Positions 10,952-34,729 of a stretch of DNA of 38,572 bases are shown here, one piece after another. The DNA comes from Chitinophagales bacterium (GTDB lineage: Bacteria; Bacteroidota; Bacteroidia; Chitinophagales; UBA2359). The stretch covers positions 1 through 38,572 of the forward strand of contig JAHDDV010000011.1 in the NCBI GenBank assembly GCA_020629205.1, in the 5' to 3' direction. Within the stretch, counting starts at the first letter, position 1, and every line of letters starts with the position of its first letter. The position numbers were made by a program, and so were the translations under genes. The notes under the pieces are model-generated. The model had not been told where the DNA came from. It saw only the letters and a list, made by a program, of their open reading frames with translations, and made no database searches.

Positions 10952-12715
10952 ATGTCAAAGCAAAAGATTTCATTTTTCATTCTTATTGTGTTTTTGGGTG
11001 CGCTGATCCGGTTCGTCGGCCTATCATTTGACTTTCCAAAACTTACAAAACCTGATGAAGATCATGTGGTCGAAGCTGTTGATGACCGAATGGAAGGAAA
11101 AAGTGTGGGTAAGTATGGCCGACCAGATCGCACGATCCAACACTTGAATGTATTCGCAAGGCGGACACTGGCTGTATTCGGAATGGATGAGTTGAATCTC
11201 CAACAAAGGTACTATATAGGAAGATTCATTTCCTTCATGTTTGGCGTTCTTTCAATTGTCATAGCCTTCTATATTGGTGAGCAGTTTAAAAACAAGTGTG
11301 GACTTTTGTTTGCTTTTGCCTGTGCCTTTAGCCCTCTGTTGGTGCAAAACTCACGCTTTGTTACGCCAGAGCTAGCTAATTACTTCTTTACTTTGTGTGT
11401 AGTGCTGGCCTCCATACTTTACGTGAAGAAGCGGCAGAATCTTTTCCTTGCGCTGGCTGTTTTGTCATGTGCTCTCAACACGGCTGCTAAGTATCCTGCA
11501 GTCCTTTGCAGTTTGGTGATTGGTTTAGCCATATTCTTTAAAACCTATCAGCCCGAAGATATCAAACAGTCAATGCTAGACTTCTTCAAGTATTCTGTTT
11601 TGAGTTTTATAGGCTTCGTAGTCTGCTTTTTGATTGTCTTTCCAGAATTGGTGCTTGATTTTGATGGGGTAGTGAAAAAGCTAACAAATAATGCTCACCA
11701 CGTTCATACCGGAGTTCCAGAGCTGGGTTTTCTTGTCTTGATGAAAGAATACTTCTACTATTTTCTACTTGATGGTGGAGTACTATATTTGCTTGTCGCA
11801 ATTCTAGGCGCCTACTATGCCTGGAAACTCAAGGAGCACAAGTTCATATTCTTTCTTGCCATTGGGTTATTGATTCAGGTATTTCTTAGCGCAGTGATAG
11901 ACTTCCATATGATGCGCTACTCTGTTATCATGGTTGTTACTCCACTATTTTTCTGGGCCTATGGCAGCAGTGCCATCATTTCGAAACTACGAGAGACCAT
12001 TGGGGAGTCAAGTACTGGTCGCAAATCGATTGGCCCGGTTGCCTTATGCCTTTGTGTACTCATAAGCAGCTTGTTCTTCGTTACTAAAAGTACCGCAGAC
12101 ACAATGGCAGTGTGTGGAAAGCACACCTCCTTTCTGTTGGAAGAGTACGGCAAGGAAAATGGGGTCACCAGAAAGAATTCCTTGTTTGGAAATTACACAT
12201 TCGGAATTCGCGGCTACTTTCGAAAGGCGAAATTGGGCAATTTGAAGACCAAGAACAAGCCATACATTGTTGTTGCCTCGAAACTCTACAATCGCTATTA
12301 TGACGAAAGACATGGAGATAAATATTCAAGGTATCGACGGTTCTACGATACGATTCTAGGCATGGAATTGATACATGAAATCAAGCCAACCGATCAATCG
12401 CTGGATATTCAAGAATTGATGTTTACCGAGGACGTTACCTTCAACTATATAGACCTGATTACTATTGGGCAACGGACAAAGTTCATTCTCACACACTTGG
12501 GCAGGGAAGTGGTCAATGGGCCCAGAATCAGTATTTTCAAAAACAAGTTCAACGACCCAAACAGAGATTCTGCGGCGATTGATAAAGCGCAAGGAGAAGA
12601 AGCAGGAGAAGCAATCAAGGGAGCAGTGACAAAAGAACGAACTGATACAGTGATGAATGCTACATCTGTAAAGACCAAGAAAAGGAAAAAGCGAAGAGGA
12701 AGTAAGGGACACTGA
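10952..12715 (+). CDS. GT39/ArnT-like GT-C glycosyltransferase with polybasic tail
   Basis: Polytopic GT-C enzyme of 587 residues that should use a lipid-phosphate-linked sugar on the periplasmic side. Seen: a first helix (8-25), then an acidic loop KPDEDHVVEAV (33-43) carrying the Asp/Glu pair expected of the catalytic loop 1, about ten membrane segments to ~380, and a periplasmic domain (~390-545) with the ArnT-like pattern PYIVVASKLYNRYYDE and GPRISIFKN. Anomaly: the last ~20 residues are strongly basic (KTKKRKKRRGSKGH), beyond the domain's natural end. It has no start-proximal signal peptide other than helix 1. It is the last gene of the operon, convergent to wbqC. Acceptor and sugar are unknown. 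Confidence 0.82.
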   Translation: MSKQKISFFILIVFLGALIRFVGLSFDFPKLTKPDEDHVVEAVDDRMEGKSVGKYGRPDRTIQHLNVFARRTLAVFGMDELNLQQRYYIGRFISFMFGVLSIVIAFYIGEQFKNKCGLLFAFACAFSPLLVQNSRFVTPELANYFFTLCVVLASILYVKKRQNLFLALAVLSCALNTAAKYPAVLCSLVIGLAIFFKTYQPEDIKQSMLDFFKYSVLSFIGFVVCFLIVFPELVLDFDGVVKKLTNNAHHVHTGVPELGFLVLMKEYFYYFLLDGGVLYLLVAILGAYYAWKLKEHKFIFFLAIGLLIQVFLSAVIDFHMMRYSVIMVVTPLFFWAYGSSAIISKLRETIGESSTGRKSIGPVALCLCVLISSLFFVTKSTADTMAVCGKHTSFLLEEYGKENGVTRKNSLFGNYTFGIRGYFRKAKLGNLKTKNKPYIVVASKLYNRYYDERHGDKYSRYRRFYDTILGMELIHEIKPTDQSLDIQELMFTEDVTFNYIDLITIGQRTKFILTHLGREVVNGPRISIFKNKFNDPNRDSAAIDKAQGEEAGEAIKGAVTKERTDTVMNATSVKTKKRKKRRGSKGH

Positions 12716-13623: not shown

Positions 13624-14880
13624 TCAAAGAATCATCCCGGCAGCCACTGTCTCGTTAGTTCCCTCATCTATCAAGATGAAGCTCCCCGTAAGACGGTTTC
13701 GACTATATCTATCAGCAAAGAGTGGCAAAGTAGATTTAAAACTTACTCTAGCGATGTCATTCATCCCTACGGTTTTGTCATCTTGGTCTCTATGCAGAGT
13801 GTTCACATCAACCTTATACTGGACAGTATCAATAATACATCTAGCGTCTCTGCTGGTGTGTTTTACTGCATACTTTCCACCCACTTTCAGTGGATTCTCA
13901 TTAAACCAACACAACATGGCATCGATTCTTTGTGATGCTTCTGGCGAATTATTCGGCCGAACAATCATATCACCTCGACTGATATCAATATCATCTTCAA
14001 GGCAAACGGTAACTGACATTGGGGGAAAGGCCACCTCAACTTCTCCCTGAAAGGTATCAATTGATTTCACTTTGCTTGTCCAGCCAGAAGGAAGCACTTT
14101 CACTTCATCTCCTTTTTTCAAGACACCTCCTGCCATTCGTCCACCGTATCCTCGATAATCAGGATGGGACTCTGTTTGAGGACGTATGACACATTGTACA
14201 GGGAATCTCACATCTATAAGGTTATTATCAGATCCAATATGTAAATTTTCCAATGTATAAAGCAGTGTAGGTCCATCGTACCACTCCATTGACTCTGATC
14301 GGTCTACAACATTGTCGCCCTTGAGGGCAGAAATAGGAATGAAGCGAATATCGTTAACATCCAATCGCGCTCCGAACTCCTGGTATTGCTCTACAATCTC
14401 AGTGTAGGCATCTTCGCTATAGTTTACCAAATCCATCTTGTTGACACAGACAACTATGTGTGGAATTCCCAAGAGCGCAGCAATAAAGGAATGTCGTTTG
14501 GTTTGTTCTACAACTCCATTTCTTGCATCCACCAACACAATGGCGAGATTTGCCGTACTGGCACCAGTCACCATATTTCTAGTGTACTGAATATGACCGG
14601 GTGTGTCAGCTATAATAAACTTCCGCTTCGGTGTTGAAAAATAGCGGTATGCAACATCAATTGTGATTCCCTGCTCTCTTTCGGCCTTCAGTCCATCTGT
14701 CAAAAGCGCTAAATCCACATCTTCATCACCTCTTTTTTGACTGGTTTCTTCAAGCGCCTGATATTGGTCTTCAAAGATTGACTTCGTGTCATAAAGTAGG
14801 CGGCCGATTAAGGTACTTTTTCCGTCATCTACACTCCCTGCCGTGGTAAACCTAAGCAGGGTCATATCCATATAACTCAT
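13624..14880 (-). CDS. cysN: Sulfate adenylyltransferase subunit 1 (CysN, GTPase)
   Basis: GTPase subunit of ATP sulfurylase. With CysD it drives formation of APS from ATP and sulfate. Seen: P-loop GSVDDGKST (15-23), G3 DTPGH (92-96), G4 NKMD (147-150), and beta-barrel domains of the EF-Tu kind to the end. The start at 14880 (MSYMDMTLLRFTTAG) gives 418 residues and a 43-base gap from cysD. A longer frame to 14979 would overlap cysD and add a non-conserved basic stretch. There is no fused APS kinase domain, in keeping with the separate cysC. It is the last gene of cysC-cysD-cysN. Given three sulfotransferases nearby, it probably serves PAPS supply for glycan sulfation. Confidence 0.95.
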   Translation of the reverse strand: MSYMDMTLLRFTTAGSVDDGKSTLIGRLLYDTKSIFEDQYQALEETSQKRGDEDVDLALLTDGLKAEREQGITIDVAYRYFSTPKRKFIIADTPGHIQYTRNMVTGASTANLAIVLVDARNGVVEQTKRHSFIAALLGIPHIVVCVNKMDLVNYSEDAYTEIVEQYQEFGARLDVNDIRFIPISALKGDNVVDRSESMEWYDGPTLLYTLENLHIGSDNNLIDVRFPVQCVIRPQTESHPDYRGYGGRMAGGVLKKGDEVKVLPSGWTSKVKSIDTFQGEVEVAFPPMSVTVCLEDDIDISRGDMIVRPNNSPEASQRIDAMLCWFNENPLKVGGKYAVKHTSRDARCIIDTVQYKVDVNTLHRDQDDKTVGMNDIARVSFKSTLPLFADRYSRNRLTGSFILIDEGTNETVAAGMIL

Positions 14881-14923
14881 GATATCTTTTGATTTTCTTT
14901 GGTAATTGAGATATAGAGATTTT

Positions 14924-15829
14924 CTAGAAGTAGCCTTCCTTCTTCCTATCCTCCATGGCTGTTTCAGATCTCTTGTCATCTGCTCGTCCTCCCCGCTCAG
15001 TCACTCTGGTGGCACTCACCTCCTCTATGATGTCATCAAAGTCGTAACATTCAGAGTAAACAGCTCCAGTACAGGTCATATCACCTAAGGTTCTATATCG
15101 GACCTTTCTGGTTTGATATGATTCACCGGGTTTTAGTGTCAAGAATGGAGATTTGGAAAGGATAACACCGTCTCGTTCAATTACTTCTCTTTCATGGGTG
15201 AAATATATTGAAGGAATTTCAATGTTTTCTTTCTTAAGATATTGCCACACATCCATCTCAGTCCAGTTTGAAATCGGGAATACTCTAAAGTGCTCCCCAA
15301 TCCGGTGTCGGCCATTAAAAAGATTCCAGAGCTCGGGTCTTTGGTTCTTTGGGTCCCACTGTCCAAAATCGTCTCTGTGAGAAAAGAAACGTTCCTTGGC
15401 TCTTGCTTTTTCCTCGTCTCTTCTGGCTCCACCTAAGCAAGCGGTAAATTTGCCTTCCTCGACCGCATCAAGTAGTGTAGTAATTTGGGCAAAATTTCTG
15501 CTTGCATTTACCCCCGTTTCTTCAGTCACTCGTCCACTATCTATGCTGTCCTGAACCGATTTGACAATCATGTTGACACCAAATTGCCTGGCGAGATTAT
15601 CACGGTAAATGATGGCTTCAGGAAAGTTATGCTCCGTATCAATGTGCATTAGAGGGAAAGGAATCTTACCTGGCCAAAAGGCTTTTCTTGCAAGGTGAAA
15701 CACCGTTATTGAGTCTTTCCCTCCGGAAAATAACAACACGGGTCTTTCGAACTGTGCGGCTACCTCACGAATGATGTAAATTGCTTCTGACTCTAACTCA
15801 TCAAGGTGAGTCATATTGTAGTTATCCAT
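14924..15829 (-). CDS. cysD: Sulfate adenylyltransferase subunit 2 (CysD)
   Basis: Catalytic subunit of ATP sulfurylase, making APS and pyrophosphate. Seen: PP-loop FSGGKDS (34-40), IDTEHNFPE, the segment around LGGARRDEEKARAKER, and the conserved tail with RYRTLGDMTCTGAV and RVTERGGRADD. The ATG at 15829 gives MDNYNMTHLDELESEAIYII and 301 residues, nearly the length of E. coli CysD (302), and AAAAAGG lies a few bases upstream. An alternative ATG at 15871 adds 14 residues and overlaps cysC by 14 bases. It lies between cysC and cysN in one transcription unit. Confidence 0.95.
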   Translation of the reverse strand: MDNYNMTHLDELESEAIYIIREVAAQFERPVLLFSGGKDSITVFHLARKAFWPGKIPFPLMHIDTEHNFPEAIIYRDNLARQFGVNMIVKSVQDSIDSGRVTEETGVNASRNFAQITTLLDAVEEGKFTACLGGARRDEEKARAKERFFSHRDDFGQWDPKNQRPELWNLFNGRHRIGEHFRVFPISNWTEMDVWQYLKKENIEIPSIYFTHEREVIERDGVILSKSPFLTLKPGESYQTRKVRYRTLGDMTCTGAVYSECYDFDDIIEEVSATRVTERGGRADDKRSETAMEDRKKEGYF

Positions 15830-15857
15830 TGAGACCTTTTTGGGGGCTAGACTATTT

Positions 15858-16469
15858 TCAAACAACTCCATATTTGATTTTAGGTAGGATGTAATCTAAA
15901 ATTTTCTGGGCACTTTCCTCTACGGACTTGCCTTTGGTTTCTACTGTGACGGCTGGGCGCACAGGCACTTCGTATGGGGCTCCGATACCTGTGAAGTTCT
16001 TTATTTCACCGGCTCTTGCTTTCTTATAGAGTCCCTTAACATCACGGGCTTCGCACACATCCAATGGTGTGTCTACATAGATTTCCACAAAATCTTCCTT
16101 CCCTATTATGTTCGCAGCAGATTGTCGGATGTGGATCGAAGGGCTTACAAAGGAATTGATCGTGATTACACCGGCATCCAAAAACAGTTTGGATACTTCG
16201 GCAATCCGTCGAATGTTCTCCAGTCGATCGTTTTCTGTAAAACCCAGATCTCTACAAATGCCTGTACGAACGTTGTCGCCATCAAGTAGCTTTGTAAAGA
16301 ACCCTTTTTTCTTCAAAGCAACTTCAAGTTGCTTGGCAATGGTCGTTTTACCAGAGCCGGACAAACCTGTCAACCAAAGGACGATTCCCTTTTGGTTCAG
16401 CTGCTGTTCCTTTTGATCTCGACTTAAGAGTTGATCAAAAACAGGGTGTATGTTGTTTTCACTGTTCAT
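15858..16469 (-). CDS. cysC: Adenylylsulfate kinase (CysC)
   Basis: APS kinase, converting APS and ATP to PAPS, the sulfate donor of sulfotransferases. Seen: Walker A GLSGSGKT (35-42), LDGDNVRTG, the DLGFTENDRLENIRRIAEV block, VSPSIHIR in place of the commoner SPFRxxR lid motif, and the conserved GIGAPYEVP near the end. The start at 16469 (MNSENNIHPVFDQLLSR, 203 residues) matches the Bacteroidota N-terminus. The earlier ATG at 16490 lies inside or upstream of the -7 box (16479-16486), so it is unlikely to be on the mRNA. It is the first gene of the cysC-cysD-cysN unit. Confidence 0.95.
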   Translation of the reverse strand: MNSENNIHPVFDQLLSRDQKEQQLNQKGIVLWLTGLSGSGKTTIAKQLEVALKKKGFFTKLLDGDNVRTGICRDLGFTENDRLENIRRIAEVSKLFLDAGVITINSFVSPSIHIRQSAANIIGKEDFVEIYVDTPLDVCEARDVKGLYKKARAGEIKNFTGIGAPYEVPVRPAVTVETKGKSVEESAQKILDYILPKIKYGVV

Positions 16470-16478
16470 TTTCGGCTG

Positions 16479-16486
16479 CAAAGATA
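16479..16486 (-). promoter_or_regulatory. -7 box of the cysCDN promoter
   Basis: The minus strand reads TATCTTTG followed by CA, an exact Bacteroidota -7 box (TAnnTTTG), nine bases before the cysC ATG. The transcript would have a leader of only a few bases. No good -33 TTG is visible at the right distance. Confidence 0.55.
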
Positions 16487-16614
16487 GCAATAAAAGTTCG
16501 TGGATATTATTGATTCAGACGATAGTCCCAAACGAAGACACTGTAAAAGACAGGAATAGCACCAACTAGTCACACCCGAAAGTCATTAAAGGGCATAAAT
16601 GGGAAACTACGTCG

Positions 16615-18612: not shown

Positions 18613-20544
18613 CTACTCTGCAATCACTTGTAGTTCTTCAATTTCGATCGTAGCTCCTGCTCTGTTCAAAGGCTTGAATGCAATATCTTCGATCCCTTCT
18701 TTGTTTGCAACATTGAATATTGTTTGGTTTTTCCCTTCTTCCACTCGCTTTACAATTGACTGATCTTTTACAAAGTCCTTTTGCCCTTTCGTTTTGTAAA
18801 AAAGCTGTGTAATTCCACTTTTGTCGTTATCGGTGTAGGCCACGATTGAAATCTTCTTGCTTTTCGGAATACTGAAGTAAATCATTGGATTTGACCGTTT
18901 TGTCTTTATGATCTGGCCTTGCATTGAAGCCTGCTTTTTGTCTGTGCTGTAGTCGCCAGCTCCACAATGATTAATGTCAAATACCACTTTGCCTTGAGAG
19001 TCAACCAAGGGGGCGACATCGGTGTACGAAGCCACCTTGTTTCGCTTAGGGTTAGATTTGCGCTTCTTCGACTTTACAGGCTTTTCTTTGGTCACCGATT
19101 TCCCAATATCCTTTTTGTTGTCATTTGTGGAATCTCCAAACATACAAGAGGCCATCAAAAGACAGCAGACAAGACCTGCCACCATTTTGGGGCTATTATC
19201 TACTTTGAACATTTTGATTGAAAAATCCTTTATAAGAGCCACTATGATTAGGGAAACAAAAAGTGCAAAAAGCGGAATATAAGGGTAACAGAACGTCAGG
19301 TAATCGAAAGTCATATGCATTGGTATTGCTGCGTGAGATTTGAAAATAATCAACATAAAAAAAGACCCAAAAAGTGCCAGTCCAAGACAAGCCAAAATGA
19401 TTAGAGCATCATTTCGTATTCGCTTGCACTCCTTGAAAGTTTCTCCTCCAATGAAGATGACGGGAGTAAGCAATGATGTCACAAATAGGGTCCCTCTTAC
19501 TGAAAAGGGTCCAATTACAGGGCTTCCTGAGAAATATATCTTCAATACATCCCAGGTAGATCTATCGATCGCCTTCCTTAAGACTTCAGTAGCCACTTCA
19601 TTTGACTCCAAATTACCAGATGTACGTTTTGCCAGCTTATACTGGAAGAATTCCCGCACTTCCGATATGCCACCTTCCATTCCAAGTACCATCAAGAGGT
19701 GGATCAAAATGGTCAAGAACAAGCCACAGAAGACTCCTGCGGCCAAGCTAGCTGCTTGTGGAAGATATTTGTGTGGTCCAAGTCCCAATCTGCTCTTGTA
19801 GAAAAACATAGGAATAAACAAAGACATTGCCAACGGAGGTACAAACTCATAGGAAATGGCAGTTACCAGAAAGAAACCAACGAATGCAAATACAAATATA
19901 TGTTTCCTGCTATCGACATCAAATCGGCTATGTGCGCCCGAAAACAGATGCATGCCGACAAAGAATGGGAGCAAGTTTAGCCAGATCCCCCATCCAGGAT
20001 ATGGCCCCATCTGCATTAACCAATGGCAAAAGCAAATCAGAAACATTGAAAATCCTGCGACTCCCAAGCCAAAGACCTGTCGAATCCACTCAAAAAACAC
20101 CAGAAGCACCAAGATCATAAGACCGATGGCAATTAGGTTAAAAAGAGGAATCAAATTTCTCCCCTTTCCTGTAAGCTTGTAGATCACCATATCAAGAACC
20201 TCATAACAGGAATAGGTCCAGCGTACTGCAGACTTATAGGTTTCAAACTGCCCTATCCGATTAGGGTCGAAGTCGTTGTCTATATAGCGATCAATATTGT
20301 AATCACGGGCATCGTGCATTCCACGTCTTCCCCTAGCTCTGAAGATATTTGTAAAGGTATAAGTGCTAAAAACACCCTGCTTCCTAGCATTATGTATGCT
20401 GCCCGTCAACCAAGCATAGGCATGTTTTTCATACATAATACCCTTATCAGAAAACGTATTGAAAGCGTCATACTTCATTGTGAAGAATAACAACAATACA
20501 ACAGCTAGCACGGATAAGCTCAGGAAGTTCGGAAGAAATTTCAT
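18613..20544 (-). CDS. Large polytopic membrane protein, probable GT-C-type glycosyltransferase
   Basis: Protein of 643 residues not clearly assigned to a named family. Seen: a first helix (~5-22), a long extracytoplasmic loop (~25-105) rich in Asp and Arg (RGMHDARDYNIDRYIDN), about nine further helices to ~480, a polybasic linker (~483-503, KSKKRKSNPKRNK) and a C-terminal beta-type domain (~510-643) ending DIAFKPLNRAGATIEIEELQ. The pattern of first helix, acidic loop and many helices is that of GT-C enzymes, and its place before GT2 and GtrA in the same operon fits the third component of a Gtr cassette. Odd: the last helix carries LLMASC, which resembles a lipobox but is internal. Confidence 0.72.
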   Translation of the reverse strand: MKFLPNFLSLSVLAVVLLLFFTMKYDAFNTFSDKGIMYEKHAYAWLTGSIHNARKQGVFSTYTFTNIFRARGRRGMHDARDYNIDRYIDNDFDPNRIGQFETYKSAVRWTYSCYEVLDMVIYKLTGKGRNLIPLFNLIAIGLMILVLLVFFEWIRQVFGLGVAGFSMFLICFCHWLMQMGPYPGWGIWLNLLPFFVGMHLFSGAHSRFDVDSRKHIFVFAFVGFFLVTAISYEFVPPLAMSLFIPMFFYKSRLGLGPHKYLPQAASLAAGVFCGLFLTILIHLLMVLGMEGGISEVREFFQYKLAKRTSGNLESNEVATEVLRKAIDRSTWDVLKIYFSGSPVIGPFSVRGTLFVTSLLTPVIFIGGETFKECKRIRNDALIILACLGLALFGSFFMLIIFKSHAAIPMHMTFDYLTFCYPYIPLFALFVSLIIVALIKDFSIKMFKVDNSPKMVAGLVCCLLMASCMFGDSTNDNKKDIGKSVTKEKPVKSKKRKSNPKRNKVASYTDVAPLVDSQGKVVFDINHCGAGDYSTDKKQASMQGQIIKTKRSNPMIYFSIPKSKKISIVAYTDNDKSGITQLFYKTKGQKDFVKDQSIVKRVEEGKNQTIFNVANKEGIEDIAFKPLNRAGATIEIEELQVIAE

Positions 20545-23680: not shown

Positions 23681-24523
23681 ATGAAAAACTCAGTTTCTGG
23701 CATCGCTGTAATGCTTCTGGTATGCCTGTCTCTGTATTCTTGCATGGCAAGAAAGGCTGAGCTGAAAAATCTGCAACAGATAGAAAATGTCTTCTACAAA
23801 GATGGTGAGTTGTTTAGCGGTATTGCCATTAGTAAGTTTAAGAACGGCCGGGTTCGTGTTCAAACTACTATCGAAGATGGTAAACAAAACGGCCTGCGAA
23901 GTGAGTGGTTTGAGAATGGACGACGTAGCAAGGAGATCAGTTTTCACGATGGCAGAAAAGAAGGTCAACTGATGCTGTGGCATCCCAATGGAGCAAAAAA
24001 ACGAAAGGCGCAATTCTCAAACGACACCCTGCATGGCGAAATCAAAGAGTGGTTTCAATCGGGCAAGCCGAAAAGTCACGAATTTCGCAAGATGTCATTA
24101 TTGTCAGGCAAAAAGCTCACCTGGTACAAGAGCGGGCAAATAAAATCTGAAGAGAATTATGAAGAAGGCAAGTTAAATGGCCTGCGAAAAACATATTTCG
24201 AAAGTGGCAATAAAAGAGTTGAGGCTACTTTTGCGGCTGGCTTGCTCGATGGAGTACGTAAAGAGTGGCACCAAACAGGAAATCAAAAGTCACTCGAGAA
24301 CTTTAAGCATGACCTTCGAACTGGAGCTAAACAAGAATGGTATGAGGATGGGACTCTGAAGTTCGAGGTGTTATTTAATGACAAAGGTAACAAGGAAGGA
24401 AAGCAAAAGGAATGGTACGAAGACGGCACCTTGAAGTCAGAAACTCAATATAGAAACGGAATAATCGAAGGAGACGCTACCTTTTACGACAAAAGCGGGA
24501 AGAGGGTCCAGCGGAACTACTAA
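23681..24523 (+). CDS. MORN_2-repeat (YwqK-like) lipoprotein
   Basis: Secreted lipoprotein of 280 residues. Seen: a signal peptide of type II with hydrophobic core and Cys21 (LYSC), then about nine repeats of ~24 residues with the MORN_2 core (EWFENGRRSKEISFHDG, EWYEDGTLKSETQYRNG and so on). Repeats seven and eight are nearly the same. Known: MORN_2/YwqK repeats form a beta-strand solenoid. The family is often annotated as an antitoxin, but nothing here supports a toxin pair. No enzyme motif is seen. It is followed after 11 bases by a second protein of the same type. A surface or periplasmic binding role is the most that can be said. Confidence 0.8.
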   Translation: MKNSVSGIAVMLLVCLSLYSCMARKAELKNLQQIENVFYKDGELFSGIAISKFKNGRVRVQTTIEDGKQNGLRSEWFENGRRSKEISFHDGRKEGQLMLWHPNGAKKRKAQFSNDTLHGEIKEWFQSGKPKSHEFRKMSLLSGKKLTWYKSGQIKSEENYEEGKLNGLRKTYFESGNKRVEATFAAGLLDGVRKEWHQTGNQKSLENFKHDLRTGAKQEWYEDGTLKFEVLFNDKGNKEGKQKEWYEDGTLKSETQYRNGIIEGDATFYDKSGKRVQRNY

Positions 24524-24534
24524 CCACAACAGGT

Positions 24535-25824
24535 ATGAGACATAGCTTAATCAATCTGCTTCTAGCAGCGATTTGTTTTTTTCTCTTTTCATGTTCTGAA
24601 AAGAAGTTAGATACTAAGTACTTGATCGAAGTTCAAGGAGCCTACATCTACGAAGGAGCACCATATACTGGTGTCGCTTATTCAAAATTTCCGAATGAGC
24701 AAGTAAAGATGAAGATAAACTATGTTGACGGGAAATATGAAGGCATAACCCAGAGATTCAGGAAAGGCGGTACTATCGAAAAGGAGATCAGCTACAGTGC
24801 CGGAGTAAAGCACGGTCCTTCAAAAGCGTTTTTCCCAACGGGCCAGATATCTGTGGAAGAGAACTTTGTCAATGGGGTACGTGATGGGGAGAAGATATCT
24901 TACTTTCCAGACGGAAGCATTAGAAGCAAGAAAGTGTTTGCTAACGATCTGATCACTGGAGAGACCATAAGAAACTATGAGAATGGAAAAATCAAGGAGT
25001 CTAGTAATTATCTATTGAACAACAAGCATGGGTACTCTCGGCTGTATTTTGAGAATGGCCAGATGAAGTCGGAAGCCTACTTCGAAGAGGGCACTCAGGT
25101 AAAGGCAAGGAAGGCTTGGTATGAAAACGGTCAACTTAAGTTGCATGAATTCTATAAAGATGGAAAAGTTGATTCTCTCAAAAGCACTTGGTATGAATCC
25201 GGGAACCGACAGAGTGAGATCTTGTTTGTTAACGGAGTGAAACGAAGTGCAAATTCTTGGTATGATACCGGTAAGCCAAAGTCAGAAAAGAGCTTTGATG
25301 AGTTTGGATCCCCAATTGGCGAAATCAAAGATTGGTATGAGACAGGAACCCTAAAGAGAAGCACCGTCTTTAAAGAAGGAGGCAAAGAACATTTGGAGTT
25401 TCTGGAAGATGGAACCAAGAGCGTTGAAGAGATACTTGATAAGAACAAAAACGGTCACAAGATCACTTGGCACGACACTGGAAAAATGGCTAGTCGTAGA
25501 ATACTTAAGAATGGAAGGGTAGTTGGAACCGCTGAGACTTGGTATAAAAACGGAAATCTCGAGTCTAAACAAACCTTTGTTGATGGAATGAGAGAGGGTA
25601 AGAAAATTGAGTGGCACATGAATGGAATAGTGAAGCAGGAAACAGTGTTTGAGAATGATGTGCGAGTTGGTAACCCGCTCAAGTGGAGTGCGGACGGAAA
25701 GCCATTAGTTGCAAAGCCCAATGCAGGGAAAGTGCAGAAGGGAAAAGGGAAGAAAGGACAAGGAAAAAAGGGTAAGAGGAAAAAGAAACAGAATCGTAAA
25801 GGTCAATCTGCCCAAGGAAAGTAG
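24535..25824 (+). CDS. MORN_2-repeat lipoprotein with Lys/Gly-rich tail (paralogue)
   Basis: Larger paralogue of the preceding gene, 429 residues. Seen: lipoprotein signal with Cys20 (LFSC), a similar N-terminal stretch after it (both have a Y-x-[DE]-G motif followed by TGVAYSKF or SGIAISKF), about a dozen MORN_2 repeats (KAWYENGQLKLHEFYKDG, EWHMNGIVKQETVF), and then a tail of ~35 residues made almost wholly of Lys, Gly, Gln and Arg. The tail is absent from its neighbour. The pair clearly arose by duplication and then changed in repeat number. The basic tail could bind anionic glycan. The function is unknown. Confidence 0.8.
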   Translation: MRHSLINLLLAAICFFLFSCSEKKLDTKYLIEVQGAYIYEGAPYTGVAYSKFPNEQVKMKINYVDGKYEGITQRFRKGGTIEKEISYSAGVKHGPSKAFFPTGQISVEENFVNGVRDGEKISYFPDGSIRSKKVFANDLITGETIRNYENGKIKESSNYLLNNKHGYSRLYFENGQMKSEAYFEEGTQVKARKAWYENGQLKLHEFYKDGKVDSLKSTWYESGNRQSEILFVNGVKRSANSWYDTGKPKSEKSFDEFGSPIGEIKDWYETGTLKRSTVFKEGGKEHLEFLEDGTKSVEEILDKNKNGHKITWHDTGKMASRRILKNGRVVGTAETWYKNGNLESKQTFVDGMREGKKIEWHMNGIVKQETVFENDVRVGNPLKWSADGKPLVAKPNAGKVQKGKGKKGQGKKGKRKKKQNRKGQSAQGK

Positions 25825-26924: not shown

Positions 26925-27731
26925 ATGTACAATAAAGTAATAGTAATTGGCGGTATAGCGCGAAGTGGGACCAGCTGGTTAGGGCAAATTATCGATAGCT
27001 CTCCGGACGTGATATATCACTTTCAGCCGCTGTTTTCTTACGCCTTCAAAGGAAGAGTGAATGAAAACTCGTCAGAAGGAGAATTTAAAGCATTCTTTGA
27101 TGACATCTATGAAAGTAGGGATAGCTTTATGCAGCAACAAGATAAGCGTGATTCCGGAGATTACCCGATTTTTCACAAGAATACTCCTCCTAATACACTT
27201 GCCTTTAAGACCTGTCGATATCAGTATGCTATTGAGCCAATGCTTCGGAAAAACCCAAAAGTAAAAGTCTTAGGAATTGTGAGAAATCCCTGCGCTGCAT
27301 TGAATTCCTGGATGAGTCACCCAAGTGAATTTCCCAAAGGATCGGTCAGAAGTGAGGAATGGAGACACGGCAAATGCAAAAATAGCGGTCCCGAAGATTT
27401 CTATGGATATTACAAGTGGCGTGAGGTTGCAAACAACTATCTTGACCTTAGGGACAAATACCCTGAACGAGTTTTGGTAGTAAACTACCAAAACCTGGTT
27501 TCAGATACGATATCACTAGTTGAAGAAATATACGCATTTACAGGTTTGGAGCTTACTGAACAAACGAAGAACTTCTTGCAAAAAAGCACAAGTACTCATA
27601 ACAACAACTACTATGCTGTGTTCAAGGACAAATCTGTGGCGCATCGTTGGAAAGGAGAACTCGAACCGGAAATTGCGGCAGAAATTGAAGCGGATATTCG
27701 TGGAACACGATTGGAACAATTCCTAAATTAA
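26925..27731 (+). CDS. Sulfotransferase (second copy)
   Basis: PAPS-dependent sulfotransferase of 268 residues. Seen: 5'-phosphosulfate loop VIGGIARSGTSWLGQII (7-23), 3'-phosphate motif GIVRNPCAALNSWM with Arg120 and Ser128, and a late VVNYQNLV strand followed by the C-terminal KDKSVAHRWKGEL loop often seen near the PAPS pocket. The ARSGTSWL form of the loop differs from the other two copies here. It is 24 bases before the next GT2, in the same unit. Inference: sulfates a sugar residue or the lipid-linked precursor. The position sulfated is unknown. Confidence 0.87.
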   Translation: MYNKVIVIGGIARSGTSWLGQIIDSSPDVIYHFQPLFSYAFKGRVNENSSEGEFKAFFDDIYESRDSFMQQQDKRDSGDYPIFHKNTPPNTLAFKTCRYQYAIEPMLRKNPKVKVLGIVRNPCAALNSWMSHPSEFPKGSVRSEEWRHGKCKNSGPEDFYGYYKWREVANNYLDLRDKYPERVLVVNYQNLVSDTISLVEEIYAFTGLELTEQTKNFLQKSTSTHNNNYYAVFKDKSVAHRWKGELEPEIAAEIEADIRGTRLEQFLN

Positions 27732-27754: not shown

Positions 27755-28765
27755 ATGAGGGAAACCAATGAAGCATTTATGAAAGTATCGATTGTAATAC
27801 CAGTGTTTAGGAATCAGGGCTCACTTTGGCTTTCATACGAAAGTATTCGAGATCAGATAAAAAAAGAATACCCCGACTTCTCGTATGAGTTCATCTTTAC
27901 TGATGATGGATCCGATGACAATTCATTGTCTGAGCTTCTAGAGATCAGATCTGCAGACCCTCAAAACGTAACCGTAATTAGGTTTTCGAGAAACTTCGGA
28001 CAATTTGCCGCTATCTCGGCAGGATTGCAGCGAGCCAAAGGTGATATGGTTGTCAGTATTTCCGCTGATTGTCAAGATCCACCCGAGTTGATCCCCAAAA
28101 TGATTGCTGGCATTCTCGATGGATACGATATCGTATTAGGCACTAGAGAAAGTAGAAATGATTCTGTCATTAAAAACCTTACTGCTGCCATTCACTTTAA
28201 GTTGATGAGGATCGAAAACCCTACCTACCCAAAGGGGGGATTTGACTTCTGGATGTTGAGTCGTAAAGCCCTACAGTCTCAACTTCAGTTCACCGATCAC
28301 ATTCGATCTATGCAAGTTGACATTCTCTCTCTGGGCTACAAAGTGCTTCAAATACCCTATGAGCGACGTAGACGTACGATCGGGAAGTCTCAATACAATT
28401 TCAGCAAGAGACTCAAGGTGAGCCTCAATCAAATTCTTAGTACTTCATATTGGCCACTTCGACTAGCCTCAAGTATAGGATTAGTAACTACCTTATTTGG
28501 GTTTCTGTTTGCGATGAAGATCGTTTACAACTACTTTTTTACTACTACTCCGTTCGATGGCTGGGCCCCTATTATGGTTGTGCAACTTGTACTGGGTGGT
28601 ATGACAATCTTCATGTTGGGAATCAGTGGAGAATATTTATGGAGGATCTATCATGAGACTAAAGCACGACCGATGTACTTGATAAACGAAATCTTGTCTC
28701 CGGAGCAGCCCAAAGTAGGGCTTGAAATACAATCAAATGATGAGTTGGGCCATGGAGAAGCTTAG
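27755..28765 (+). CDS. GT2 polyprenyl-phosphate glycosyltransferase (third copy)
   Basis: GT2 enzyme of 336 residues. Seen: SIVIPVFRNQ (12-21), nucleotide motif FTDDGSDDNSL (48-58), SADCQDPPELIPKM in the DXD position (103-116), the catalytic-loop DFWMLSRKAL, RRRTIGKSQYNF, and two C-terminal helices (~240-305). The ATG at 27779 would remove eight residues and start at MKVSIVIPVF, which is equally plausible. The DXD site reads D-C-Q-D rather than D-x-D-L, as in several bacterial relatives. It is followed by the UPF0104-type protein with overlap, and together they make a third cassette. Confidence 0.87.
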   Translation: MRETNEAFMKVSIVIPVFRNQGSLWLSYESIRDQIKKEYPDFSYEFIFTDDGSDDNSLSELLEIRSADPQNVTVIRFSRNFGQFAAISAGLQRAKGDMVVSISADCQDPPELIPKMIAGILDGYDIVLGTRESRNDSVIKNLTAAIHFKLMRIENPTYPKGGFDFWMLSRKALQSQLQFTDHIRSMQVDILSLGYKVLQIPYERRRRTIGKSQYNFSKRLKVSLNQILSTSYWPLRLASSIGLVTTLFGFLFAMKIVYNYFFTTTPFDGWAPIMVVQLVLGGMTIFMLGISGEYLWRIYHETKARPMYLINEILSPEQPKVGLEIQSNDELGHGEA

Positions 28766-29708
28766 GCAAGTTCTGCAAAGTATCCGATTATTCCTAAACT
28801 CCCGGCTTGGTCTTTTATTCAAAATTCTGGTTAGTATCTCCTTGTTGGTGTATTTTTTTAGCACCATAGATTTCCCAAAGTTCCTGCAGATATTAAAGCA
28901 AATCAGCACACCATTCCTACTTTTCATCTTCATTTTAATTATAGTACGGAACTATATTTCAGCATTTCGTTTTCAGATTTTGTGCAAGATTAAGAAACAT
29001 GTTGGCCTCTTCACCTTAGGCAACCATTATTTCATTGCTAGCATGTTCAATATGTTTCTACCTACCTCTATAGGTGGCGACGGAGTTAGAGTGTTATTGC
29101 TTAAACGAGAAGGAGTAGACCAGGTAGATAGTCTTTCGTTAATCTTAATTGAACGTTTTGTAGGATTCTTCTCTTTTGTGCTGTTTGCTTTCACAGGCTT
29201 GTTTTTTATTTCTTTGCCCATCATCATCAGCGTGATAGTTATTGGAATTACGATATGCTACATCAGCTTATTCGTATTTGTGTTTTTCCCTTCCGATCGA
29301 TTTCGTGGCTGGTCCAAATTCTCGGGAAAAGCCACTGAAATCTTAGAGCAACTTAGAACAAATCGAGCACATTTACTACAGGTAATGTTGGCCTCCCTTA
29401 TTTTCCAGCTCGTGTCGATCTATATCAGATATATGGTCGCCCTTTCCTTTGGTATTGACATCGGATTTGCTCCTTTTCTAGTTTTCATTCCCTTGATCAA
29501 TCTGATATCTCTGTTACCGATTAGTTTAGGAGGGATGGGACTCCGTGAATTTGGCTTTGTACTGCTGTTTAGTCAAGTAGGATTGACGCAGGAACAGGCT
29601 CTTTTAGTATCTTTGGGGACATTTATGACGCTAGTGACCAGCGCAATCATAGGAGCGCTAATCTTTGGTTATCAACGCATAGTATCAGATGTTTCCAGTT
29701 TTCAATAG
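28752..29708 (+). CDS. UPF0104/LPG-synthase-TM-like membrane protein (possible flippase)
   Basis: Membrane protein of about 318 residues with eight or so helices. Seen: SIGGDGVRVLLLKREG (the GxxGD...R motif of this family), SLILIERFVGFF, and PISLGGMGLREFGFVLLF in the final third, all typical of the lysylphosphatidylglycerol synthase transmembrane domain (PF03706). There is no catalytic synthase domain. The ATG at 28752 is preferred (14-base overlap with GT2). An earlier ATG at 28722 lengthens the overlap to 44. Its place directly after GT2, where the other cassettes have GtrA, suggests that it could transport the lipid-linked sugar. This is inference. Confidence 0.78.
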   Translation: MEKLRQVLQSIRLFLNSRLGLLFKILVSISLLVYFFSTIDFPKFLQILKQISTPFLLFIFILIIVRNYISAFRFQILCKIKKHVGLFTLGNHYFIASMFNMFLPTSIGGDGVRVLLLKREGVDQVDSLSLILIERFVGFFSFVLFAFTGLFFISLPIIISVIVIGITICYISLFVFVFFPSDRFRGWSKFSGKATEILEQLRTNRAHLLQVMLASLIFQLVSIYIRYMVALSFGIDIGFAPFLVFIPLINLISLLPISLGGMGLREFGFVLLFSQVGLTQEQALLVSLGTFMTLVTSAIIGALIFGYQRIVSDVSSFQ

Positions 29709-29734: not shown

Positions 29735-30727
29735 ATGAAAAGGAGAGAACCATTTTTTATTATTGGAAGGTCTCGATCAGGAACTACCCTGTTGAATCGG
29801 ATGCTCAATCACCATCCGCAGATTTTTGTTCCTCAGGAATCACCGTTCATAATGCATCTGTATGCCAAATACGCCAAAAAGAAAGTCTGGAAGCAAGACG
29901 ATATCCTCAGCTTCATAGACGACTTGTGGAAAGAGGCTCGTATAAAACAATTTTGGAAGTTGGACGAGGTTGCGTTTGATCTCGAAAAGCGCCTACTTGC
30001 ATTGGGACAAGAAACAAACTTCAAGCAGCTTTGTGAAACTACAATCTACCAACAAGCGATAAAATCCGGAAAAGCTACCGCCACTCTGATGGGAGATAAA
30101 AACCCATCTTATTCGCTATACGTCGATGAGCTAATAAGCGTGTTTCCTCAGTCACAATTTATACTAGTAGTCAGGGACCCGAGAGATAACATCATCTCTG
30201 TAAAGAACTCACGTTTTGACTATAATGATACGACCATCCTTGCTGAAAGATGGGCTGGAATAAATCAACACATTCTGAAGGCCGCGGAAAAATACCCCTC
30301 GAACACACATTTAGTCCGGTTTGAAGATTTGCTGGCTGAACCTGCAGTGGTTTTACAAAAGATTTGTGCCAAGTTGAATATCCCATATGAATCCCAAATG
30401 TTGGATTTTTGGAAAAGCAATGAACAGCTGGAAAGTTGGAAAGTGTTCAAGCCACGTCCCTTGGAGAAAGGCAAGATTGACAGCTGGAAGAGCAAAATGA
30501 ACGAGAAAGATGTAGTGATATCTGAAATGATTTGTAAAGATTTGATTGATAAACTGGGGTACACGGAGTGCGAGAGCAGCTCTGATTCGGTACAATACCT
30601 TACTAGTTTGCCTAAACAAATGGTGGGCAAGGCCAGCAATTTTCTGGAAGATAGGATCTTTCACCTACCATTAGGGCTCAGGGTTACCATTATAGATACT
30701 TATAGAAGATTGACAAACACCTTATAG
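29735..30727 (+). CDS. Sulfotransferase (third copy, Sulfotransfer_3-like)
   Basis: PAPS-dependent sulfotransferase of 330 residues, the longest of the three. Seen: 5'-phosphosulfate loop FFIIGRSRSGTTLLNRML (7-24), GDKNPSY (120-126), 3'-phosphate motif ILVVRDPRDNIISVKNSR with Arg147 and Ser155, and a helical C-terminus with a basic KPRPLEKGKIDSWK stretch. The insert between the two PAPS motifs is longer than in the other copies and may shape the acceptor site. It is 27 bases after the UPF0104-type gene. Similar proteins act on sugars, on tyrosine and on lipids. The context favours a glycan. Confidence 0.87.
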   Translation: MKRREPFFIIGRSRSGTTLLNRMLNHHPQIFVPQESPFIMHLYAKYAKKKVWKQDDILSFIDDLWKEARIKQFWKLDEVAFDLEKRLLALGQETNFKQLCETTIYQQAIKSGKATATLMGDKNPSYSLYVDELISVFPQSQFILVVRDPRDNIISVKNSRFDYNDTTILAERWAGINQHILKAAEKYPSNTHLVRFEDLLAEPAVVLQKICAKLNIPYESQMLDFWKSNEQLESWKVFKPRPLEKGKIDSWKSKMNEKDVVISEMICKDLIDKLGYTECESSSDSVQYLTSLPKQMVGKASNFLEDRIFHLPLGLRVTIIDTYRRLTNTL

Positions 30728-30806: not shown

Positions 30807-31901
30807 GTGGAAACAATCAAGAAAATCCAGGTAACGAAGAGTTTTCTTCCTCCGAAAGAGGATTACCTTGCTTATATCGACAAGATATGGGAAAGCAAAT
30901 GGCTCACCAACAATGGCCCCTTTGCCAGAGAACTAGAGCAGAAACTTGCTAGCTTTCTAGACGTCAAGCATGTTCTTTTTGTAGCTAATGGTACATTAGC
31001 ACTTCAGGTGCCTCTTAAAGTCTGGAAATTTGATGGAGAGGTCATTACAACACCTTTCTCATACGTTGCAACAACGTCAAGCATTATGTGGGAGAACTGT
31101 ACCCCTGTGTTTGCCGATATTGACCCAAATACCTGCTGCATATCCCCAGAAGCAATTGAGGCTGCCATAACTGCACGTACGCAAGCAATAATGACCACCC
31201 ACGTATATGGTATACCCAGTGACGTAGAAGCCATTGAAGCAATCGCGCGTAAACACAAGCTGAAGGTGGTATATGATGGAGCACATGCATTTGGGGGAAA
31301 TTACAAAGGACGGTCTATCCTTTCCTACGGGGATGTATCCACAGTAAGCTTTCATGCTACGAAACTCTACCACTCAGTTGAAGGTGGGGCAATCATCACA
31401 AACGATGATGAGTTGGCCGCGCAGATGAAGCTGGCCAGAAGCTTTGGGCATATTGGTGACGAGCATTATAGTTTAGGAATAAACTGCAAAAATTCTGAAT
31501 TCCATGCTGCAATGGGCTTGGCTATCCTACCCTATTTTGGCGAAATAGTAGAAAAGAGAAAGGAAATCTTTAAAGTCTATGATGCTGCTCTACCGAAGCT
31601 AAAACTAAAAACAGTTACAAAGCCAGCTGGCCTCGACTACAATTACCCGTATTATCCTGTCTTCTTTGAATCCGAGGAAGAGGCCCTAAGAATCAAGGAG
31701 GGATTGGAGAAGTCTGGCATTTTCACTCGTCGATATTTCTTTCCCTCACTCAACCTTTTACCTTATCTCACGGGACAAGAATGTCCGGTAGCTGAGCGGC
31801 TAGCAGTCTCCGTGCTGTGCCTTCCTCTTTATCATGATTTGTCGATTCCTGAAGCCGAGTTTATCGTAGAACGGCTTTCACAGTTGATCGATCAGAAATA
31901 A
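30807..31901 (+). CDS. DegT/DnrJ/EryC1/StrS family sugar aminotransferase
   Basis: PLP sugar aminotransferase of 364 residues. Seen: WLTNNGPFARELEQKLASFL (32-51), VANGTLALQ, TTPFSYVATTS, YDGAHAFGG with Asp157, and SFHATKLYHSVEGGAI with Schiff-base Lys186. The SFHATKL.H...GG form resembles VioA/DesV-type enzymes that aminate dTDP-4-keto-6-deoxy-glucose, rather than RffA. The start is a GTG at 30807. No in-frame ATG lies near, and the N-terminus fits the family. It and RffA may therefore give two stereochemically different 4-amino sugars. UDP-sugar substrates remain possible. Confidence 0.85.
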   Translation: METIKKIQVTKSFLPPKEDYLAYIDKIWESKWLTNNGPFARELEQKLASFLDVKHVLFVANGTLALQVPLKVWKFDGEVITTPFSYVATTSSIMWENCTPVFADIDPNTCCISPEAIEAAITARTQAIMTTHVYGIPSDVEAIEAIARKHKLKVVYDGAHAFGGNYKGRSILSYGDVSTVSFHATKLYHSVEGGAIITNDDELAAQMKLARSFGHIGDEHYSLGINCKNSEFHAAMGLAILPYFGEIVEKRKEIFKVYDAALPKLKLKTVTKPAGLDYNYPYYPVFFESEEEALRIKEGLEKSGIFTRRYFFPSLNLLPYLTGQECPVAERLAVSVLCLPLYHDLSIPEAEFIVERLSQLIDQK

Positions 31902-31936
31902 TCTCCGTAAAGCAGCATTTGATAATCAAAATAAGT

Positions 31937-34729
31937 ATGTCAGAGTCCTCCAATAAGTATGATAGGTTAGCAATGTTGATCTTGTTCATGTGGCCTTTCG
32001 TTTTTTTATTCAGGTTCAATTTTGGTGGTCTTTTTCCTCCTGAGTATTTCACACTTGATGTTGTGCACTTTTATTACCCAAAGGTATACTTGCTCAAGCA
32101 TCTGTCTGAGTTTAAGTTTCCACTTTGGTCACCAGTAGAAGCAGGAGGGTTTCCTTTCTTTTCTAATCCATTCAATCAGGCCTGTTATCCCCTAAATATA
32201 CTATTGGCAATTTACTACAAACTTGCAGGAGGGTTTAGTTGGTTGGATTACCAGCGATTTTCCACTTTAGGCATCTCAATGTTTGCAGTTTTTGGCTACA
32301 AATGGCTTAGATCCTTGAGAGTTGATCTCAGGCCTGCCTTATTCACGATGCTTGTAATGGCGATAAGCTATAAAGTTGTGGGAACGATGAATAGAGCACC
32401 AGCAACACACGGTTTAGCTTGGATGACAATGATTTTGTGGGGGATGACCGAGGTTGTCTTGCACGGCAAGAGGAGAAAAGGTGGATTGCTTGTGGTAATC
32501 GCCACCTTCATGCTTTTCACGAATCTCTATCCTTACTACATCTACTATTGTATTTTCCTTGTTCCTCCCTATCTACTTTTCCTTGCATTTGGCGGAACTA
32601 GAAAGGCCTATACCGGTATCGAATCAATTGATCTATTTGCAAGCATCAAGACCCTTGCTTTGTCTTTTGCTACACCCCTTGTGTTGTGTTTGCCATTTCT
32701 AATAAATGTTAGACATACCCTAGCCACCATCAACACAAGAAGCGAAGCCTCTGCGCTGTACACTAAAAGTGGCAGCTTTGAATTCCCTGACACACTCGGT
32801 GCACTAGTTTGTCCTCCCTTTAGTGACATGAGAGGTTGGTATTACTTTGGGCTTTTCGCCTTGCTCATCATACTTCTGTATATTGTCAATCACTTCTATT
32901 GTGTCTCCAAAAGAAAACCATCTAAGTTGATCTTGATGACTCTGTTTGGGTACTTCCTATTTATCACCTTCCTCTCATACACGAACTCATTACTCTTCGA
33001 ATTGTTTCGAAATTACTTTCCCGGATTTGGAAACTTCAGGGCTTGGGGAAGACTGAATGTAATAATGGTTTTCATTTTCTCTCTCATACTGAGCCGAGCA
33101 TATAACTTTCTAGAAGAGATACTACTCGAACCGGAATCACGTATATCTGACTTCAAAAGAAAGATTTTCCCTTTCCTTGGCTTATTCTCTTTGTGCTATG
33201 TGGTTGTTCTTCTAACACAGGTATTCTTGTTTTCCACAATGAATTATGATCACCTATGGCGACTGAGAATCCTTGCTCTGTTCCCCGAATTTCAGCACTA
33301 CTTCTATGTATATATTGGTGCCATTGGCTTTGTCGTTATCTCTCTTGCAGTCTTTTTGGCTTCTCGCAAAACTTCATCCCCGTTTTCTCTAAAAACAAGG
33401 AGACAGATGTCCTTTGCACTCATCCCAATATTGGTATTTCCAATCGGGCTAGATGTAGGCTACACTTCGATCTACCTTCGCTCTCACCCCAATCGTGAGT
33501 TTGTCTCTGGTCCTGCTCACATGGAGCGTCAAGATTTCGATCTTCAAGCCAATCTTATGACAGCATTCGAGGCGCCAAAGCACTCCGAATACATCAAGCA
33601 AATTCAAATGCCAGTCTTCTTTGACAAAAAGACTCCAATGCTGTCAGTGAGAGCAGGTATTACCTTTTGGATGGGTTCGTATACTCGGTTTATTGAAGCA
33701 AACTCCGAGGTAATTCCAAGAAGAGAGTGGCGGAGACTGTACAAGTTCAAACCAGATCTCAAGGAATTTTTAGGAATGAATGATGGTACTAAACTCTATT
33801 TCTCCAAGCGTATCGATTATCCTATTAACTCGGTGGCTGACTTTCTTGATGACGCTTACCAACATGAGACCAGCTCAGATTTTCAATATTTCGTGTACAA
33901 CTACACAGGCGACGTTGTCGACATTGCAATCAATGCTGAAAAGGATGGTTTTTTCACACTCCTTGACAACTATAACAAGGACTGGTATGTCGAAGTTAAT
34001 GAGGAAAGAGCCAAGATTGACAAACTGTTTGACACCTTCAAATCCGTGAGGGTCAAGAAGGGATTGAACTACATGCATTTCAGGTATGACCCTCCCTTCT
34101 TCTCGATCTTGCGACGAGACGGGGAAAGGGTATTTCCTCCAAGAGACGCCCCTCTTCTGGTGCAAAAGAAGCACAAAAAACAAAAACAATCGAACGCCAA
34201 AAAGGCGAGAATAAAGAATCTTAAGCGTTTAATCAATGAGCGCGCAGCCACTCTCTCTGCAAGCAAGACAGTAGAGTGGCAACCAAGTGTGAACCTAAGC
34301 ATAACCGGCCAGAAAATCAAAAGTAATATACCGGTATTATGGGGAGGAGCCGGTACTGTATCTAGTAATCGATTGGGTGCAAATCTAGATGGGTACCTGG
34401 AATTCAAGATCAATGAGCTGCAGACAACCAGATTCATTGGGTTTTCAAAGCAGAACGTGGACAATCACTTCGAAACAATTGATTACGGAATTCACATCAC
34501 CAAGGAGAAGCAGATAAACCTTTATCATCAGGGTCGAAGAATACGCGAAGGGATAGATGTGAAGGTAGACGATGTTCTTGCTATCCAACGAATTCAAGGG
34601 CACATAGTATTCCGTAAAAACGGAGTAATCGTTGGGCTATTGGAGGACGAAACGAATTCAAGCTTGTTGATAGATCTTAGCTTTTTGTCAAAAGGAGGCA
34701 GCTTCGAGAGTGTCAGGTGTAGCTTTTAA
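31937..34729 (+). CDS. YfhO-like membrane protein with C-terminal SPRY/lectin-like module
   Basis: Very large membrane protein (931 residues). Seen: first helix (~11-30), then DVVHFYYPKVYLLK and PLWSPVEAGGFPF, the acidic loop and P.W.P...GG.P motif of YfhO/GT-C proteins, about a dozen helices to ~510, and a periplasmic beta domain (~520-725) ending GLNYMHFRYDPPFF as in YfhO. Odd: instead of the usual last helix, there is a polybasic stretch (~742-769) and then a beta-sandwich module (~790-931) with DYGIHITKEKQINLYHQG, VDDVLAIQRIQGHIVFRKNG, the pattern of SPRY/concanavalin-like domains in Bacteroidota surface proteins. Known: YfhO helps glycosylate lipoteichoic acid or similar. The ATG at 31937 is chosen over a TTG at 31919. 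Confidence 0.8.
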   Translation: MSESSNKYDRLAMLILFMWPFVFLFRFNFGGLFPPEYFTLDVVHFYYPKVYLLKHLSEFKFPLWSPVEAGGFPFFSNPFNQACYPLNILLAIYYKLAGGFSWLDYQRFSTLGISMFAVFGYKWLRSLRVDLRPALFTMLVMAISYKVVGTMNRAPATHGLAWMTMILWGMTEVVLHGKRRKGGLLVVIATFMLFTNLYPYYIYYCIFLVPPYLLFLAFGGTRKAYTGIESIDLFASIKTLALSFATPLVLCLPFLINVRHTLATINTRSEASALYTKSGSFEFPDTLGALVCPPFSDMRGWYYFGLFALLIILLYIVNHFYCVSKRKPSKLILMTLFGYFLFITFLSYTNSLLFELFRNYFPGFGNFRAWGRLNVIMVFIFSLILSRAYNFLEEILLEPESRISDFKRKIFPFLGLFSLCYVVVLLTQVFLFSTMNYDHLWRLRILALFPEFQHYFYVYIGAIGFVVISLAVFLASRKTSSPFSLKTRRQMSFALIPILVFPIGLDVGYTSIYLRSHPNREFVSGPAHMERQDFDLQANLMTAFEAPKHSEYIKQIQMPVFFDKKTPMLSVRAGITFWMGSYTRFIEANSEVIPRREWRRLYKFKPDLKEFLGMNDGTKLYFSKRIDYPINSVADFLDDAYQHETSSDFQYFVYNYTGDVVDIAINAEKDGFFTLLDNYNKDWYVEVNEERAKIDKLFDTFKSVRVKKGLNYMHFRYDPPFFSILRRDGERVFPPRDAPLLVQKKHKKQKQSNAKKARIKNLKRLINERAATLSASKTVEWQPSVNLSITGQKIKSNIPVLWGGAGTVSSNRLGANLDGYLEFKINELQTTRFIGFSKQNVDNHFETIDYGIHITKEKQINLYHQGRRIREGIDVKVDDVLAIQRIQGHIVFRKNGVIVGLLEDETNSSLLIDLSFLSKGGSFESVRCSF

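Follow-up and report, generated by a model that had tools for sequence, protein, structure and literature searches.

Fusion gene and genomic setting

The window, by which we mean the whole stretch of 38,572 nucleotides analysed here, comes from a contig (JAHDDV010000011.1) of a Chitinophagales bacterium and carries an intact open reading frame whose ATG at 31937 opens a product of 930 amino acids without internal stops; an alternative TTG start at 31919 would yield 936. The encoded protein combines a multi-pass membrane part with a conserved tail segment of YfhO type, a variable linker and a C-terminal domain (Table 1). In a hydropathy profile averaged over eleven full-length homologues, about 13 hydrophobic segments are followed by 411 residues predicted to lie outside, a placement that follows, on hydropathy only, from 13 segments and an N-terminus on the inner side. 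PF09586 (YfhO) was the sole Pfam family found for the protein, at 23.9 bits against a gathering score of 28.5, and the best match joined residues 656–724 to positions 761–830 of the 835 in the profile. With its score under the cut-off, the window protein is YfhO-like and not a member of PF09586, although the family profile matches ten of the eleven homologues at E ≤ 0.01 and two of them (G013:C122 and G003:C416) exceeded the cut-off in the genome search. A profile of the whole protein retrieved no solved GT-C relative from the PDB. Asp41 and much of the loop after it are invariant in the alignment of the eleven copies, and by analogy with GT-C enzymes, from which the role is carried over, this residue is a candidate catalytic aspartate. 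Mean pairwise identity among the copies was 51.5% in residues 1–250, 45.8% in the YfhO tail (641–722), 33.0% in the C-terminal domain and 19% in the linker.

Table 1. Features of the fusion gene and of neighbouring genes in the window
Feature	Position	Strand	Remarks
Sulfate activation: EF-Tu-type GTPase, PAPS-reductase-family protein, APS kinase	13624..16490	-	Pfam
Sulfotransferase (PF00685/PF13469)	26925..27731	+	Pfam; homologue in L047 and L051 operons
GtrB/CsbB-type GT2, two C-terminal hydrophobic segments	27755..28765	+	Pfam, PDB relatives
LPG_synthase_TM / TIGR00374 flippase-like membrane protein	28722..29708	+	Candidate lipid-sugar flippase
Sulfotransferase_3 family protein	29735..30727	+	Pfam
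DegT/DnrJ/EryC1 aminotransferase	30807..31901	+	Directly upstream of the fusion gene
YfhO-like GT-C-type membrane protein with C-terminal SPRY-like domain	31937..34729	+	930 aa
Membrane part, residues 1–510	31937..33466	+	13 hydrophobic maxima, 11-sequence averaged profile
Invariant Asp41, LDVVHFYYPK, first large loop after first hydrophobic segment	32057..32059	+	Alignment of 11
Conserved YfhO C-terminal extracytoplasmic segment, residues 641–722	33857..34102	+	PF09586-matching part
Variable linker, residues 723–778	34103..34270	+	Mean pairwise identity 19%
Polybasic stretch KKHKKQKQSNAKKARIKNLKR	34166..34228	+	Within linker; window protein only
SPRY-like (ConA-like) beta-sandwich domain, residues 779–930	34271..34726	+	Sequence homologues and model

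The genes upstream of the fusion gene have a recurrent arrangement, since the order GT2, flippase-like gene, sulfotransferase and fusion gene is common to the window and to loci L047, L048 and L051, in each of which the fusion gene is directly preceded by a Sulfotransferase_3 homologue; DegT and WbqC genes are found nearby in L047 and L048. Four other fusion loci (L049, L052, L054 and L058) are without an adjacent pair of GT2 and flippase-like genes. In PDB searches the GT2 was related to GtrB sll0501 (5eke/5ekp, E 8e-51) and to ArnC (E 3e-42), and by homology only the operon would include a polyprenyl-phosphate sugar synthase of the GtrB/CsbB type. The flippase-like protein reached 59.2 bits with TIGR00374 (cut-off 43.2), and two GtrA proteins are also encoded in the window, together with a Wzy-type protein, further GT2 and GT-C-like proteins and GtrII. 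The sulfate-activation genes are presumably CysN-like, CysD-like and CysC-like. Taken with the sulfotransferases and the set of glycan-related genes just listed, they make it likely that the surface glycan of the locus is sulfated.

The fusion was found in six of 20 genomes of one Chitinophagales family, which hold eleven full-length copies with the window protein included. The ten other copies are 34–41% identical to it over nearly the whole length, and the fusion loci with named public records belong to MAGs labelled Chitinophagales or Bacteroidetes, which come from at least two projects. It was absent from the examined genome of the same genus and was not seen elsewhere among 296 genomes drawn across the phylum. 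A profile of the C-terminal domain, run against 398 genomes of the order, scored highest with the eleven YfhO-like fusions, all of that one family; the weaker matches outside the family were inspected in part. The domain order described in the first-pass annotation is thus repeated in ten relatives. That an assembly error or missed frameshift has joined two adjacent genes, a worry raised there for the frameshift and one to which the fragmented assembly of 579 contigs might lend weight, has next to no probability, because none of the eleven full-length copies, obtained in at least two sequencing projects, contains an internal stop.

C-terminal domain, linker and missing helix

The C-terminal ~150 residues matched no credible family in Pfam or NCBIfam, the Pfam SPRY profile (PF00622) gave no match in the 11 members up to an E value of 10, and sequence searches of the PDB with the domain returned nothing credible. 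A single-sequence search with residues 775–930 reached a homologue from a different genus with E 6.5e-29. Structure prediction from the tail sequence on its own reached a pLDDT of 49, and AlphaFold2 with an 11-row alignment of the domain and its ten relatives gave 13 strands with a pLDDT of 88.6 and a pTM of 0.85. The best solved structures in Foldseek were SPRY domains (DDX1, E 3.3e-7, and Ash2L) and CBM66, and VIA-align 2 placed the TRIM67 PRYSPRY domain first (Z 15.4, 2.5 Å over 149 residues), followed by a plant endoglucanase (Z 14.3), CBM66 (14.1) and ERGIC-53 (13.5). Since differences in Z of less than 1 were counted as ties, the safe statement is that the model has a ConA-like sandwich of the SPRY type, with TRIM, RanBP and Ash2L SPRY domains among the closest structures. 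The best viral fold match was a structural protein of a Cellulophaga phage (TM 0.82). In the model the domain is therefore a SPRY/ConA-like beta-sandwich, and the earlier description of a YfhO-like membrane protein bearing a SPRY/lectin-like sandwich, made from the letters of the window, is borne out by a confident prediction and by a fold search led by SPRY domains, with CBM66, ERGIC-53 and glucanases nearly tied. Six residues of the domain are invariant (W781, G835, G866, D879, G896 and F930); these look mainly structural, and no conserved binding site was found in the domain.

Two details of that description need qualification. The polybasic linker is real, with 17 lysines or arginines in 61 residues and a net charge of +12, but it is private to the window protein, as the linkers of the ten relatives contain 3–11 such residues and carry net charges of −3 to +5. 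In the window, a PMT_2-like protein (10952–12715), a MORN_2 protein (24535–25824) and the protein of 18613–20544 described next likewise bear strongly polybasic stretches, resembling this linker, at the C-terminus or close to it, and all three are exported or membrane proteins. An enrichment of the window in such stretches was considered and discarded, as they were present in 4 of the 31 window proteins and in 7 of 107 on other contigs of the genome (Fisher p 0.27, not significant). On the reverse strand, the gene at 18613–20544 encodes a 643-aa multi-pass protein that has a polybasic linker as well as a soluble C-terminal region of ~130 residues; it had no Pfam match, adjoins a GT2 and a GtrA gene, and could possibly be another GT-C enzyme of a three-component system.

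The second detail is the statement that the sandwich stands in place of the last helix. Ordinary YfhO proteins, matched in 165 of 199 genomes of the order, have a transmembrane helix at or near the end in 19 of 20 cases inspected, located after the strand at which the fusion linker starts, and the fusion family has no final transmembrane helix after its extracytoplasmic loop. Measured against ordinary YfhO the wording is apt, but the nearest relatives without the SPRY-like domain are helix-less already. These are encoded at three Opitutales loci by open frames of 730–743 codons, show 29–31% identity and end right at the junction strand with neither helix nor extra domain, so that loss of the helix may have preceded, or been independent of, gain of the domain. 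Opitutales MAGs carry such genes as tandem pairs (loci L056 and L057).

The domain beyond the YfhO-like family

Homologues of the domain occur in 24 of 295 genomes of the class. The proteins inspected there are secreted-type or bear signal peptides and contain single or tandem copies, up to ten in one 3019-aa frame, in agreement with the earlier remark that the sequence pattern is one of secreted Bacteroidota proteins. In two genomes of the family, copies were also seen in genes (L155:6875–7726 and L156:7067–7747) among prophage- or particle-like genes, their surroundings being prophage-like by our own reading.

A second membrane enzyme carries the same domain or is encoded beside it in two more genomes of the family, G005 and G015. 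In genome G005, a 793-aa PMT_2-like GT-C protein (L132:7314–9692; 24.1 bits with PMT_2, just below the cut-off of 26.1) ends in it and adjoins a lipoprotein with a further copy (L132:9729–10358). The same genome has a split version, in which a relative of the GT-C membrane part (L132:15814–17241) is directly followed by a one-helix protein that ends in the domain (L132:17183–18226), and an equivalent pair is present in G015 (L133:14893–16344 and L133:16385–17389). The split genes match the front of the fused protein at 35–36% identity over ~410 residues and its back at 22% over 325–335 residues (E 3e-23 and 3e-16). As they correspond to both halves of a fused gene, they constitute evidence of the Rosetta-stone type that the domain works with GT-C enzymes. 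Outside the domain, no sequence similarity was detectable between the PMT_2-like and YfhO-like proteins. The domain is a real and reused part, carried by the relatives of the window protein and by an unrelated enzyme of the same type, and that it is linked to two unrelated families of GT-C enzymes, by fusion as well as by gene adjacency, goes beyond the first-pass annotation.

A tree of the domain separates all GT-C-linked copies from the secreted ones, with a support value of only 21, a topology compatible with one origin of the GT-C-linked copies, and a single clade of YfhO-fused copies was not rejected (p 0.51). Net charge ranges from −6 to +8 in the fused copies and lies between 0 and +8 in most of them, and the majority of the secreted copies, though not every one, are acidic; a basic character of the GT-C-linked domains suited to sulfated glycans is suggestive only. 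MORN_2-repeat proteins were observed next to or near SPRY-like GT-C genes in several genomes (23681–25824 in the window, L048:10706–11992, L052:426–1802 and L133:1853–3277).

Proposed role and relation to known systems

Our interpretation builds on what was computed here, namely the domain architecture, the predicted fold and its conservation, the operon, and the reappearance of the domain with a second GT-C family, and we infer the enzyme activity, the topology and the binding target of the domain. We give an even chance to a reading in which the fusion protein would be the extracytoplasmic last enzyme of a three-component glycosylation system, in a probably sulfated surface-polysaccharide locus, with an acceptor-holding SPRY-like module. 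In the cytoplasm, undecaprenyl phosphate would receive a sugar or amino sugar from the GtrB/CsbB-like GT2, and the lipid-linked sugar would be flipped by the LPG_synthase_TM/TIGR00374 protein or by one of the GtrA proteins encoded in the locus. The YfhO-like GT-C part with its Asp41 loop would transfer the sugar to a surface glycan in the periplasm, and the sandwich, on its flexible linker, would hold the acceptor glycan near the active site, in the manner of the carbohydrate-binding modules attached to EmbC, AftD and ORF12. The operon fits, at the level of gene content, the scheme established for three-component systems, in which a GT2 loads undecaprenyl phosphate, the product is moved by a flippase and the sugar is transferred outside by a GT-C enzyme (PMC5836110, PMC11127046, PMC8035078), YfhO with CsbB being a precedent (PMC5836110). 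Acceptor-binding modules are found at the C-terminus of the GT-C enzymes EmbC (PMC3044687) and ORF12/GT136 (PMC11127046), and a review proposes that S. aureus YfhO has an extracellular domain that binds carbohydrate (PMC8035078). An acceptor-holding, sugar-binding role of the domain is plausible by this analogy, and it is the reading we favour, since this is how the modules of EmbC and ORF12, likewise attached to GT-C enzymes on the outside, act. CBM66 and ERGIC-53 are neighbours of the model in fold, and a shared fold shows no function. Several points speak against the reading: the window protein lies under the PF09586 cut-off, four fusion loci are without the GT2/flippase-like pair, protein binding is the best-known function of SPRY domains, the six invariant residues look mainly structural, and the domain is less conserved than residues 1–250 or the YfhO tail.

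Protein docking is a serious rival, which we consider possible yet somewhat unlikely. The domain would tie GT-C enzymes to a shared partner of an envelope-glycan assembly machine, for example a sulfotransferase, a Wzy-type polymerase, a MORN-repeat protein or a lipoprotein, and would bind no sugar. SPRY folds in eukaryotes mostly bind proteins or peptides, and the SPRY domains of TRIM, RanBP and Ash2L stand closest to the model. Within one bacterial family, two unrelated kinds of GT-C enzyme and adjacent one-helix or lipoprotein partners carry the domain, which also agrees with docking, as does the weakly supported separation of GT-C-linked from secreted copies. Against it, CBM66, ERGIC-53 and glucanases are nearly tied with SPRY in fold, and the copies carried by secreted repeat proteins and by prophage-like genes would suit the binding of ligands at surfaces. 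With some doubt, we tentatively suggest that the domain serves the envelope-glycan assembly of this bacterial family as a general, exchangeable adaptor, acquired by YfhO-like and PMT_2-like GT-C enzymes as a fused part or neighbouring subunit, for one common target, either a sulfated acceptor polymer or a scaffold.

It is rather improbable that the domain is a structural appendage, a spacer or stabiliser standing where the anchoring last helix was and having no specific ligand. Its place among the more variable folded parts, the unconserved linker and the Opitutales homologues that manage with neither helix nor domain would agree with such a role, but no full-length copy of the family lacks the domain, which also accompanies a second GT-C family and exists as separate adjacent genes, and a mere spacer would not need this.

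Returning to the acceptor-holding module as the preferred reading, it touches a question for which, to our knowledge, only few cases are known (EmbC, AftD and ORF12), namely how extracytoplasmic glycosyltransferases find their polymer acceptor. The module, which accompanies two unrelated GT-C families and occurs fused as well as encoded by a separate adjacent gene, is small and soluble, and this makes it open to expression and to direct tests of acceptor binding.

Like YfhO of B. subtilis and S. aureus (PF09586; acting with CsbB and GtcA), the fusion protein would be a multi-pass enzyme with a large extracytoplasmic region near the C-terminus, a conserved tail segment and a CsbB/GtrB-type GT2 encoded nearby (PMC5836110, PMC8035078). 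Unlike them, it stays below the curated cut-off, ends with an extra SPRY-like domain and no final transmembrane helix, and belongs to a Gram-negative, sulfotransferase-rich locus. With EmbC, AftD and Citrobacter ORF12/GT136 it shares the plan of a membrane glycosyltransferase with an appended extracytoplasmic beta-sandwich (PMC3044687, PMC11127046), and since sugar-binding sandwiches on GT-C enzymes have been described before, it does not represent a new kind of protein. The window protein differs in belonging to another GT-C family and in its sandwich, which is predicted to be SPRY-like, with putative ligand binding, whereas that of EmbC is a jelly-roll and that of ORF12 is Ig-like; we found no SPRY-type domain on a bacterial glycosyltransferase in the open-access literature. 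The secreted repeat proteins and prophage-like proteins of Bacteroidota are sequence homologues of the domain, but they carry it in tandem or behind signal peptides and have no multi-pass enzyme. SPRY/B30.2 domains (PF00622), CBM66 and ERGIC-53 have the ConA-like sandwich predicted for the window domain, which differs from the SPRY/B30.2 family in being bacterial, predicted extracytoplasmic and unmatched by the Pfam SPRY profile, and which adds an extracytoplasmic, biosynthetic setting to a fold that is familiar chiefly from protein-binding modules of eukaryotes.
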